From NCBI GenBank assembly GCA_024639505.1, contig JAHEIE010000006.1, positions 1 to 34,267 of the forward strand: a stretch of 34,267 bases of DNA, given 5' to 3'. Below, piece after piece: positions 4,559-9,023 of this stretch; position 1 is the stretch's first letter; each line of letters begins with the position of its first letter. Made by a program: the position numbers and the translations under genes. A model generated the notes under the pieces. That model was not told the origin of the DNA, made no database searches, and saw nothing but the letters and a program-made list of their open reading frames with translations. This stretch comes from Crocinitomicaceae bacterium. GTDB taxonomy: Bacteria > Bacteroidota > Bacteroidia > Flavobacteriales_D > CAJJDF01.

Positions 4559-5617
4559 ATGACCAAAAAAGTGTTTAAAATATTCGTTTTAATCGTATTC
4601 AGTCTTAGCTCGTTAGTTTCGGTTGCATCTGCGGAAGCTCACGGTCATAGCGATACTACAGAAGTTAAGAAATCGATCAGAGAAGAAATTAAAGAGACAA
4701 TTGCTCATCACCTTCAAGATTCTTACATTTTTGAAATAACTCATGGAGTAAGTTTTCCATTGCCAGTTATTTTGTGGGATGGAGGTTTGCATGTGTTTTC
4801 TGGAGCAGCTTTCCACCATGGAGATCATGCAGTAGAATCAAAAGGAAACTTTTACAAGCTTTATCACGGTAAAATTTACAAAACTGACAGTGAAGGTCAT
4901 ATTAATTACGATGCAGAACACCACGTTCAAAACGCGAAGCCGTTTGATTTTTCGATTACAAAAAATGTTTTTGTAATCATTTTGATGTCTGCATTTTTAT
5001 TTTTCTTGTTTTCGAGAATGGCAAAAAGATATGCAAACAACATGAATCCGGGAGGGGCAGCCAAGTTTTTGGAGCCAATCATTATTTTCATTAGAGATGA
5101 CATTGCTATTCCAAACATTGGAAAAAAGCATTACAAGAAATACATGAGTTATTTGTTGACTATCTTTTTCTTTATCTGGTTTTTGAATCTTGCCGGAATG
5201 ACACCACTTGGAATTGGAGTAACCAATAACATAGCTGTTACATTTGCTTTAGCTCTTATTACTTTCCTAATCACACAGTTTACAGCAAACAAAAATTACT
5301 GGGGACACATATTTTGGATGCCAGGTGTACCAAAACCAATGAGAATTATTCTTGCGCCAATAGAATTGCTTGGAGTTTTTATTAAGCCTTTTGCTCTGAT
5401 GATTCGTTTGTATGCCAACATGACTGCGGGTCATATCGTAATCATGAGTTTGATTGGATTGATTTTTATCTTCCAAAACTACTTTGCGACAGGAGCTTTC
5501 TTCGGTCTTACTTTATTTTTATCAATCTTAGAGTTGCTTGTAGCTGCTCTACAAGCTTATATTTTTACGATGTTATCTGCGTTGTATTTCGGTGCAGCAG
5601 TAGAAGAACATCACTAA
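4559..5617 (+). CDS. atpB: ATP synthase Fo subunit a, long Bacteroidota form
   Basis: 352 aa, about 80 longer than E. coli AtpB. A signal-peptide-like N-terminus (1-25, ending SVASAEA) precedes a periplasmic segment of about 105 residues rich in His (HGH at 28-30, HH at 50-51, 86-87 and 121-122). The Fo core starts near residue 133 with five or so membrane helices. The essential proton-channel arginine is R283 in LMIRLYANMTAGH, with LELLVAALQAYIFTMLSALY as the last helix. It forms the half-channels against the c-ring in the inner membrane. A signal peptide and extension on subunit a are, as I recall, usual in Bacteroidota; the function of the His-rich part is not known to me. It is first of the atp structural genes and 43 nt precede atpE. 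Confidence 0.96.
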   Translation: MTKKVFKIFVLIVFSLSSLVSVASAEAHGHSDTTEVKKSIREEIKETIAHHLQDSYIFEITHGVSFPLPVILWDGGLHVFSGAAFHHGDHAVESKGNFYKLYHGKIYKTDSEGHINYDAEHHVQNAKPFDFSITKNVFVIILMSAFLFFLFSRMAKRYANNMNPGGAAKFLEPIIIFIRDDIAIPNIGKKHYKKYMSYLLTIFFFIWFLNLAGMTPLGIGVTNNIAVTFALALITFLITQFTANKNYWGHIFWMPGVPKPMRIILAPIELLGVFIKPFALMIRLYANMTAGHIVIMSLIGLIFIFQNYFATGAFFGLTLFLSILELLVAALQAYIFTMLSALYFGAAVEEHH

Positions 5618-5638
5618 TTTGAATTTAAAACACATTTA

Positions 5639-5852
<214 letters not shown>

Positions 5853-5867
5853 TCATAAAATGAATTT

Positions 5868-5896
5868 AGTAGTTGCAACGGTTGGTTGCAACTACT
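5868..5896 (+). promoter_or_regulatory. Strong hairpin just downstream of atpE
   Basis: AGTAGTTGCAAC (5868-5879) pairs perfectly with GTTGCAACTACT (5885-5896) around a 5-nt loop. It lies between atpE and atpF. A U-rich stretch follows (TTATTTT, then a T7 run ending near 5914) but not directly against the stem. It is best read as an mRNA-stability or partial-termination element that raises atpE expression over the distal genes. Confidence 0.6.
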
Positions 5897-5925
5897 TATT
5901 TTAATTGTTTTTTTAAAAAAGAAGT

Positions 5926-6426
5926 ATGGAAAAGTTAATATCAGATTTTTCGGTTGGATTGTTTTTTTGGCAATCACTAGTATTCGTAGCACTTATCTTA
6001 TTGCTAAGAAAATTCGCTTGGAAACCAATCTTGAATGCAGTAAATACAAGAGAAGAAAGCATTGAAAATGCATTGAACTCTGCAGAAGATGCCAAAAAAG
6101 AAATGGCTAATTTGACTGTCTCTAACGAAAGATTGCTAAACGAGGCAAGAGAAGAAAGAGATGCATTGATGAAAGAAGCCAGAGAAATGAAAGCTGAAAT
6201 CGTTGCAAAAGCAAAAGAAGAAGCAGCAGCAGAAGGTGAAAAAATGATTGCATCTGCAAAAAGTGCTATCGAAATGGAAAGAAAAGCAGCAATAGTTGAG
6301 TTGAAAAACCAAGTTGCTTCTTTGTCAATCGATATTGCTGAGAAAGTAGTAAAAGGAAACTTAGCTTCTGACGACAAGCAAAAAGCATTGGTAAATGAAT
6401 TAGTAGAAGAAGTGAACCTAAACTAA
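5926..6426 (+). CDS. atpF: ATP synthase Fo subunit b
   Basis: 166 aa, normal length. An N-terminal membrane helix (about 9-28) is followed by KFAWKPILNAVNTREESIENAL, the family's start of the stalk. A long charged Ala/Glu/Lys-rich right-handed coiled coil runs to about 135, and the C-terminal part (QVASLSIDIAEKVV) contacts subunit delta. Two copies form the peripheral stalk that holds F1 against subunit a. Only one b gene is present, so the stalk is probably a homodimer. It is followed 24 nt later by atpH. Confidence 0.95.
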   Translation: MEKLISDFSVGLFFWQSLVFVALILLLRKFAWKPILNAVNTREESIENALNSAEDAKKEMANLTVSNERLLNEAREERDALMKEAREMKAEIVAKAKEEAAAEGEKMIASAKSAIEMERKAAIVELKNQVASLSIDIAEKVVKGNLASDDKQKALVNELVEEVNLN

Positions 6427-6450: not shown

Positions 6451-6984
6451 ATGAAAGATAGTAAAACAGCATCACGTTACGCAAAAGCTTTATTAGGGTT
6501 GTCACAAGAAAGTGGTAAGCTCGAAGAAGTAGTTTCGGACATGAATTCTTTATCCGAAACATTGGCCCAAAGCTCAGATTTACGTTCTTTGGTTAAGAAT
6601 CCGGTGATAAAAGGAGAAGAAAAAACGAAAGTGTTTACAGCTCTTTTTGGATCTCAATTTAATGAATTGACACTGAATACAATTCAGTTGTTGGTGAAGA
6701 ATAAAAGAGAAACCTTATTGGCAGAAACTGCAAATCAATTTGTGGGAATGTACAAAGAGAGCAAGAACATTGTTACAGCGGAGGTGACTTCGGCTTCTCA
6801 ATTGGATGAAGAGCAAAAGAAAAGTATCCTTTCTTTGTTGAAACACGATGGAGAAGTAGAAATAGTAGAAAAAATTGACGCAGCTCTTATCGGTGGATTT
6901 ATCGTAAGAGTAGATGACAAACAAATAGACGCTAGTATTTCGACAAAGTTTAAAAACTTAAGAAAAGAAATTTCACTTAACTAA
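6451..6984 (+). CDS. atpH: ATP synthase F1 subunit delta
   Basis: 177 aa, usual length. It opens SKTASRYAKALLGLSQESGK, matching the family's R-Y-A-x-A-L start. An N-terminal helical bundle (about 5-105) binds the top of alpha. The C-terminal region has VEIVEKIDAALIGGFIVRVDDKQIDASI, the delta/OSCP family motif near the end that contacts subunit b. It couples the peripheral stalk to the F1 head. The next gene starts only 5 nt after the stop, so co-translation is likely. Confidence 0.94.
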   Translation: MKDSKTASRYAKALLGLSQESGKLEEVVSDMNSLSETLAQSSDLRSLVKNPVIKGEEKTKVFTALFGSQFNELTLNTIQLLVKNKRETLLAETANQFVGMYKESKNIVTAEVTSASQLDEEQKKSILSLLKHDGEVEIVEKIDAALIGGFIVRVDDKQIDASISTKFKNLRKEISLN

Positions 6985-6989
6985 GTCTT

Positions 6990-7439
6990 ATGAAAAAAGT
7001 AGTTCTGTTTCTAGCCCTCTCTTTATTAGTTCTTTCATTCAATGAATTGGGAGATAAACTAAAAGTGAAGTTTAAGAAAGGAACTATTTTGGTAGAGAAA
7101 GAGGCTTGGGGGAAATTTGAAAGAACGGGTGGAAAGAGTTTTTATAGTACTTTAGCAGGGATAGAATTCGTATCTGTCAATGGTTTGAGCTATGGAACTG
7201 GAAAGTATTACAACGATAGTAAAGGAGTAAGAAGGGAGTACATGCATTTTTATGCAGAACTTCATTTTTTAACCACAGATTTGGAAAAGTTTGAAACCGA
7301 TTTAGTGGGCAAATCACTGATTAGAGCCTTCATCAAAGAAGGAGTTATTCAGAATGATGAACTAAATCTAGAAAACGTAAAGAAATTTAAAACGAAATAC
7401 GAGGATAATATATCTGAAAAACGATTTTTGACAAAATAA
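6990..7439 (+). CDS. Unrecognised exported protein inside the atp operon
   Basis: 149 aa. The N-terminus MKKVVLFLALSLLVLSFNEL is a signal peptide or membrane anchor without a lipobox Cys. The rest is hydrophilic, Lys-rich, and looks alpha/beta, with KKGTILVEKEAWGKFERTGG near residue 30 and a charged helical C-terminal region (ELNLENVKKFKTKYEDN). No Cys and no metal-binding pattern are present. It sits 5 nt after atpH and 9 nt before atpA, so it is transcribed with them. I recognise no family. Export would place it outside the cytoplasm, unlike the F1 subunits flanking it. A role in ATP synthase is possible from position alone; an acquired passenger gene is equally possible. Confidence 0.8.
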   Translation: MKKVVLFLALSLLVLSFNELGDKLKVKFKKGTILVEKEAWGKFERTGGKSFYSTLAGIEFVSVNGLSYGTGKYYNDSKGVRREYMHFYAELHFLTTDLEKFETDLVGKSLIRAFIKEGVIQNDELNLENVKKFKTKYEDNISEKRFLTK

Positions 7440-7448
7440 ATAAATCAA

Positions 7449-9023
7449 ATGGCAGGAATAAAACCAGCAGAAGTATCTGCAATTATCAAGGAGCAATTAT
7501 CAGGATTTAAAACTGAAGCTCAATTAGAAGAAGTAGGAACTGTATTGCAAGTAGGTGATGGAGTTGCACGTATCCACGGATTGTCAAACGTACAATCGGG
7601 GGAGCTTATCGAATTTGAAGATGGATTGCAAGCAATTGTATTGAACTTGGAGGAAGATAATGTTGGTGCTGTACTACTTGGAACTTCTGATGTTGTGAGA
7701 GAAGGAGCTTCTGTAAAAAGAACAAACAGAATTGCTTCTATCAAAACAGGAGAAGGAATTGTAGGTAGAGTTGTAGATACATTGGGTCAGCCAATTGATG
7801 GTAAAGGAGCTATCGAAGGCGAATTGTACGAAATGCCAATCGAAAGAAAAGCACCAGGTGTAATTTACAGACAACCAGTAACTGAGCCGTTGCAAACAGG
7901 AATTAAAGCAATTGATGCTATGATTCCGGTAGGAAGAGGACAAAGAGAGTTGATCATTGGAGATAAGCAAACAGGGAAAACTACTGTGGCTATTGATACG
8001 ATCATCAACCAAAAAGAATTTTTTGATAAAGGAGAACCAGTTTATTGCGTATACGTTGCAGTAGGACAAAAAGCATCTACGGTAGCTGGAATCGTTAAGA
8101 AATTGGAAGAAGCTGGAGCTATGGCTTACACGACTATCGTTGCGGCAAATGCATCAGATCCTGCGCCATTACAATATTATGCACCATTTACTGGAGCTGC
8201 AATCGCAGAATTTTTCAGAGACACTGGAAGACCAGCTTTGATTGTTTATGATGATTTGTCTAAGCAAGCAGTTGCTTACCGTGAGGTGTCACTTCTGTTG
8301 AAAAGACCTCCAGGAAGAGAGGCATACCCAGGAGATGTATTCTTCTTGCACTCAAGATTATTGGAGAGAGCAGCAAAAGTGATCGAAATTGATGACATTG
8401 CTAAAGAAATGAATGATTTGCCAGAATCTATGAAAGGAATGGTAAAAGGAGGAGGTTCAATTACCGCTTTGCCAATTATTGAAACGCAAGCAGGTGATGT
8501 ATCGGCTTATATTCCAACAAACGTAATTTCTATTACAGATGGACAGATTTTCTTGGAGCAAGATTTATTTAACTCGGGTGTGAGACCAGCGATTAACGTA
8601 GGAATCTCAGTATCTAGAGTTGGAGGAAATGCTCAGATTAAATCAATGAAGAAAGTAGCAGGAACCTTGAAATTGGATCAAGCACAATACAGAGAATTAG
8701 AAGCATTTGCTAAATTTGGATCTGACCTTGATGCAAGTACAAAAGCAGTACTAGATAAAGGAGCTAGAAACGTAGAGTTATTGAAACAAAACGAAGGTTC
8801 TCCATTGTCTGTAGAACACCAAATTGCTGTATTGTATGTTGGAACTAAAGGACTAATTGGAAAAGTACCAGTAAATAAAGTTAAGCAGTTTGAAGAAGAA
8901 TACATTGCGTATTTGGAAGCAAAACATAGAGATACACTAGATTTGTTACAAGCAGGAAAATACACTGACGAAGCAACTGACGTGTTGACTAAAGTGGCTG
9001 CTGAACTAAGCGCAAAGTACTAG
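7449..9023 (+). CDS. atpA: ATP synthase F1 subunit alpha
   Basis: 524 aa. The beta-barrel N-terminal domain (to about 105) is followed by the nucleotide-binding domain. That domain has the Walker A motif GDKQTGKT at 171-178, Walker B IVYDDL at 265-270, [13 protein letters not shown] at 287-299 and the arginine finger R390 in SVSRVGG. A helical C-terminal domain completes it. Alpha carries the non-catalytic sites and completes the catalytic site of beta. The usual order alpha-gamma-beta-epsilon is broken: beta and epsilon are absent after gamma, which is common in Bacteroidota. It is the largest gene of the operon and highly conserved. Confidence 0.98.

Follow-up and report, generated by a model that had tools for sequence, protein, structure and literature searches.

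atpI/uncI and atpZ are small extra genes co-located with the F1Fo genes; like atp1/CGL160, they encode integral membrane proteins and typically stand at the start of the operon. Hypervariable allele slots, in turn, exist between conserved genes, as in surface-antigen and specificity-subunit loci. The atp operon is considered to rank among the most conserved sets of genes, and the gain, loss and middle replacement of an exported gene inside it would be unexpected. In cyanobacteria, atp1/CGL160 is a further small gene that accompanies those for F1Fo (PMC4383579), and the relevant passages of an account of Bacteroidetes atp gene orders (PMC5709465) mention no insert.

Here, we analysed a window of 34,267 nucleotides (contig JAHEIE010000006.1 of a Crocinitomicaceae bacterium, genome G000), in which one gene, hereafter X, occupies the atpH-atpA junction, hereafter the slot. 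A search of openly accessible journal papers found no description of an atpH-X-atpA arrangement. We propose that X is the current occupant of a slot for exchangeable genes and encodes an envelope protein made from the atp operon, not a synthase subunit, a reading to which we assign a probability of about 50%.

RESULTS

A predicted exported protein encoded between the delta and alpha subunit genes

The first-pass annotation had placed a 149-aa reading frame 5 nt after atpH and 9 nt before atpA, and these coordinates were confirmed: atpH ends at 6984, X runs from 6990 to 7439 and atpA starts at 7449. X is indeed encoded among the F1 genes. The features of the locus, all on the forward strand, are as follows.

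4559..5852, +, atpB and atpE, a block of another type than that of the congener G001 (by AtpB comparison)
5926..6426, +, atpF; the atpF-atpH junction serves as a control (0 insertions in 208 loci)
6451..6984, +, atpH, delta subunit, the upstream border of the slot, adjoining X
6990..7439, +, X, predicted exported protein of 149 aa, occupant of the atpH-atpA slot
6990..7043, +, predicted signal-peptide region of X, about residues 1-18 (hydropathy; model helix 2-16; AxA/Q ends in homologues)
7053..7436, +, mature domain of X, modelled as a beta sheet with three helices after it (AlphaFold2, pLDDT 93.1, pTM 0.84)
7413..7436, +, slot-specific C-terminal tail SEKRFLTK of X (9/9 clade members, synonymous changes)
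7449..9023, +, atpA, alpha subunit, the downstream border of the slot, adjoining X

The frame of X opens with ATG, closes with TAA and contains no cysteine, and a search of the forward strand between the genes around X found no terminator-like site. In the congener G003, X is 91% identical at the amino-acid level, with dN 0.039 and dS 1.27 (NG86), while AtpH is only 83% identical. X is therefore a selected protein-coding gene, not a chance ORF, and it is under strong purifying selection, with a dN/dS against this congener of about 0.03 that is approximate because dS is near saturation.

That the protein would be exported, as first suggested, agrees with its N-terminus, in which two lysines precede a strongly hydrophobic run (Kyte-Doolittle 3.2 over residues 4-14). 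Homologues show a classical AxA/Q signal end (MKNLVVLLSLLFVLPAMA/QDK and MKLTKTIIVALLMVFAYNASA/QK, the slash marking the end of the signal), and by composition the start of X is a typical export signal. The absence of a lipobox cysteine noted earlier was borne out, LPAM_1 giving only an E of 1.7, under its cut-off. Likewise, Pfam and NCBIfam gave no match in X to a type IX secretion C-terminal sorting domain, and the C-terminus is modelled as a helix.

X belongs to a large unnamed family of Bacteroidota

The profile and structure searches that the first-pass annotation had proposed led to a large Bacteroidota family; they gave neither a named family nor a significant fold match. Profile searches of genomes from the phylum to which the window belongs brought up many relatives, and 58 collected members form one homology network over their mature parts (E 0.01). 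Members from the genus g68, probably Chryseobacterium as judged from its sequences and species number, matched the family profile (A5) with E 1e-11 to 1e-29 over their mature parts. A profile match, a predicted signal peptide and a continuous homology network all place X in this unnamed secreted family. It was met only in Bacteroidota, in the phylum-wide profile searches and in a conserved-peptide scan of all available genome contigs, the latter returning Flavobacteriales records only.

The protein remains without a name, as first claimed: Pfam, NCBIfam (F1Fo subunits and known atp accessory families included) and PDB sequences gave no above-cut-off match for X or its relatives. PADLOC gave none for X and only isolated ones for its relatives, at 0.004 or weaker and each in one of 35 members, and the phage and plasmid collections contained no family member. 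The mature domain was modelled confidently by AlphaFold2 (see the feature list), and searches of PDB and viral structure models found no significant structural match, from which novelty of the fold does not follow. The best Foldseek hit had an E of 0.07, not significant, and in a second structural comparison the BLIP/PepSY-like fold (DUF2874) scored Z 2.8-3.3, which is background level.

The majority of the family lies at scattered loci, and some members carry a second domain. In longer Flavobacteriaceae members of 250-480 aa (L124, L125, L126, L131, L133), this appears to be a copy-like domain behind the first. In many g68 species, one paralogue is kept next to the gene for a YfcE-like phosphodiesterase (L057, L058, L228, L229, L231, L235, L236, L238, L239; about 1450-1950), and some family members are therefore stable in place. 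The family searches that reached G000 found no paralogue in it besides X.

A recurrent slot at the atpH-atpA junction

Is an occupied atpH-atpA junction a common feature among relatives of the window? Using survey genomes restricted to one per species, we found X at this site in three of the four species of the window's genus, namely G000, G003 (91% identity) and G001 (about 44-45%). The fourth, G002, has a 24-nt junction without X; G004, from the sister genus, also lacks X, and in G005 masking hides the atpH end, but the spacing is too small for X. The atpH-X-atpA order recurs in named records of Crocinitomix, Winogradskyella (where W. tangerina M1309 is a carrier) and Flavobacteriales 33_180_T64, in G059 from another family of the order, and in four further genera (G1177, G1140, G979, G938) of the family f17, which we take to be Flavobacteriaceae from sequences and species number. 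Among 70 surveyed g68 species, 15 have an ORF in the junction, and by profile all 15 belong to the X family. The distance from the atpH stop to the start of X is 1 to 25 nt in all carriers.

Thus, the order proposed for checking across Bacteroidota recurs in several families, though it is absent from most relatives. In most other genomes surveyed, the junction is empty and 1-110 nt long. In a class survey of 59 genomes, a sample biased toward genomes with a window-like AtpA, 57 had no gene there (junction 6-110 nt), and none of 79 surveyed Flavobacteriaceae genera had an insert. Across the surveys, insertions were found at 16 of 209 atpH-atpA junctions versus 0 of 208 atpF-atpH junctions (Fisher p 2e-5, with species that are not independent). 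The X family recurrently uses the atpH-atpA junction as a slot, in several families of Flavobacteriia.

The other two of the 59 class genomes differ from this pattern. G695 (L117, 1367-1666) has a second kind of occupant, an unrelated secreted ORF of 99 aa that lies ahead of atpA and overlaps the atpH end. In G376 (L112, 1456-1746), a 291-nt junction holds no ORF and perhaps represents the remains of a lost gene.

X turns over faster than its flanks

Between G000 and G001, X is 45% identical, with AtpH at 79% and AtpA at 98%. More than half of X thus differs beside such similar neighbours, and the occupant has therefore been replaced or is of other source. The same holds in g68, where the median pairwise identity among 18 occupants, divided by eye into seven subfamilies, is 32% for X versus 82% for AtpH. 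Within these occupants, the bodies are 29% identical, the predicted signal peptides and the tails 50% each. The sharpest pair, L284 and L224, combines 96.7% identity of atpH DNA and 99% of AtpH with 32% of X, and the first nucleotides of the ORF are identical.

Presence is equally mobile. On a flank-DNA tree of 73 g68 species, it requires 16 changes, 12 of them forced by well-supported branches, which is no fewer than with shuffled labels and leaves no phylogenetic signal. On a tree of AtpH from 156 genomes, the count is 10 changes, at least 7 of them forced. Two g68 non-carriers, L275 and L283, have a carrier-like 3' spacer, as if X had been lost. A single ancient insertion inherited by descent is unlikely, given the scattered presence on the flank trees and an AU test p of 0.04 for one clade of 15 slot proteins, a marginal value from a test with long branches and weak power. 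Joint transfer of X with atpH was also considered and was not seen among the carriers listed from the AtpH tree, whose AtpH groups with its own kin, X or not. Within X alleles, dN/dS is 0.03-0.18. Taken together and read from sequence, these comparisons demonstrate that the presence and the middle part of X have a far higher turnover than the genes on either side, and that X is conserved within lineages, with a predicted signal peptide and a slot-specific tail retained.

Replacement of the body in place, presence and absence without phylogenetic signal, small size and predicted export would also suit a periplasmic immunity or receptor-shielding protein directed against rivals' toxins or phages, to which the atp operon gives constant expression. 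We consider this unlikely, however, since neither PADLOC nor phage families gave an above-chance match, the family was not found on phages or plasmids, no effector partner was seen adjoining X, and some paralogues are stable at one locus.

Alternatively, the junction may simply tolerate an extra gene, X being a near-neutral or selfish passenger. The patchy presence and the unrelated secreted ORF of G695 at the same junction are consistent with such tolerance. A near-neutral gene is nevertheless improbable in view of the low dN/dS within alleles, the conserved signal peptide and tail, and occupants drawn nearly all from one family. As an acquired passenger, an option raised by the first-pass annotation, X fits the findings better than as a dedicated accessory.

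Slot-specific tails and the relation to the ATP synthase

A GVNI-type or FLTK tail ends 29 of 33 slot proteins versus 1 of 25 scattered members (Fisher p 4e-11, inflated by relatedness), and the nine proteins with an FLTK tail group together in a single clade (support 95/95). Because its coding sequence shows synonymous changes and lies between 9 and about 120 nt from atpA, the FLTK tail is conserved as protein. This bears on the idea that atpA translation is set by the 3' end of X in the form of RNA, the protein being incidental. Indeed, the last X nucleotides are near-identical across three congeners; the protein-level conservation at varying distance and an RNA fold z-score of just -1.3 make this very improbable. 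The slot-restricted tails and the avoidance of the atpF-atpH junction hint at a tie of the protein to its slot that may go beyond mere expression.

Would this tie be to the synthase itself? X could be a periplasmic accessory acting in assembly, in the stator or in regulation, whose conserved tail docks while the body varies. Its conserved position directly behind the delta-subunit gene, the slot-specific tails conserved as protein at varying distances from atpA, and the purifying selection argue for it. However, X is missing from most relatives, a congener included, in which the other atp genes are in place; its family lies chiefly elsewhere in genomes; its body is replaced at 99% AtpH identity; and it is unaltered where atpB and atpE are replaced. 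We therefore see in an accessory a minor but real possibility. An F1Fo subunit should occur in all operon-bearing relatives, and X is absent from G002 and G004, with no gene at the junction in 57/59 class genomes and 79/79 Flavobacteriaceae genera.

The more specific suggestion of a lineage-specific accessory acting with the extended N-terminus of AtpB did not survive. AtpB is also long in genomes without X (365 aa in G002, 354 aa in G004, 381 aa in G005), which speaks against a link of X to this extension, and X does not follow the Fo type. In two Winogradskyella (L054, L055), atpB is 50% and atpE 56% identical, while X is 89%, AtpH 88% and AtpA 97% identical; atpB and atpE were replaced here beside an unchanged X. 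The first-pass annotation had held that scattered loci in an unrelated family, or absence from the site in all close relatives, would speak against an accessory, and the outcome is split: the family is scattered, yet X occupies the site in 3/4 species of the genus. A structural tie between X and the synthase is possible from the tails and the junction specificity, and it is unsupported where it could be checked, in Winogradskyella.

Independently of X, there are two types of atpB and atpE, and in part of atpF, which swap as a block (window 4559-6426; L054, L055). The AtpB of the window is 53% identical to that of its congener G001 and 66% to that of G004 from another genus, with AtpA at 98% within the window's genus.

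DISCUSSION

We favour the reading that X currently occupies a slot whose genes can be exchanged. X would be transcribed with the atp genes and, because of this, probably made constitutively and at a high level, then exported to the periplasm or cell envelope, where it would not serve as an ATP synthase subunit. The cassette may be gained, lost or replaced by homologous recombination through its own conserved ends and the near-identical atpH and atpA on either side, which would be the simplest route. Because neither a mobile element nor an attachment site was seen, we only infer this route. From the turnover we guess that the variable middle part has an envelope job favouring variants, for example towards phages, rivals or surfaces. 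One could also imagine swappable exported heads on a conserved tail that docks onto the synthase from the periplasm, or onto a co-made partner, so that the varying protein would shield the synthase from phages, toxins or the environment, or tune it to them; we hold this combination to be quite unlikely.

Turnover between near-identical delta and alpha genes offers a genetic handle on an undescribed protein family. It raises the question of whether the slot is an expression harbour or reflects a real synthase tie, and it warns that a conserved neighbourhood may mislead functional guesses.

In summary, X resembles atpI/uncI, atpZ and atp1/CGL160 in being a small extra gene among the F1Fo genes, and it differs from them in its predicted export, its place between the delta and alpha genes, its patchy presence and its exchanged middle part. 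To the secreted BLIP/PepSY-like proteins of Bacteroidota (DUF2874; 4ipb, 4hbr, 4fr9) there is a weak structural resemblance (Z 2.8-3.3), but the scores are at background level and no sequence match accompanies them. With hypervariable allele slots X shares conserved ends and flanks, a variable middle and a recombination-like turnover; unlike these, it lies inside the ATP-synthase operon and is a single small, predicted exported protein of an unnamed family.
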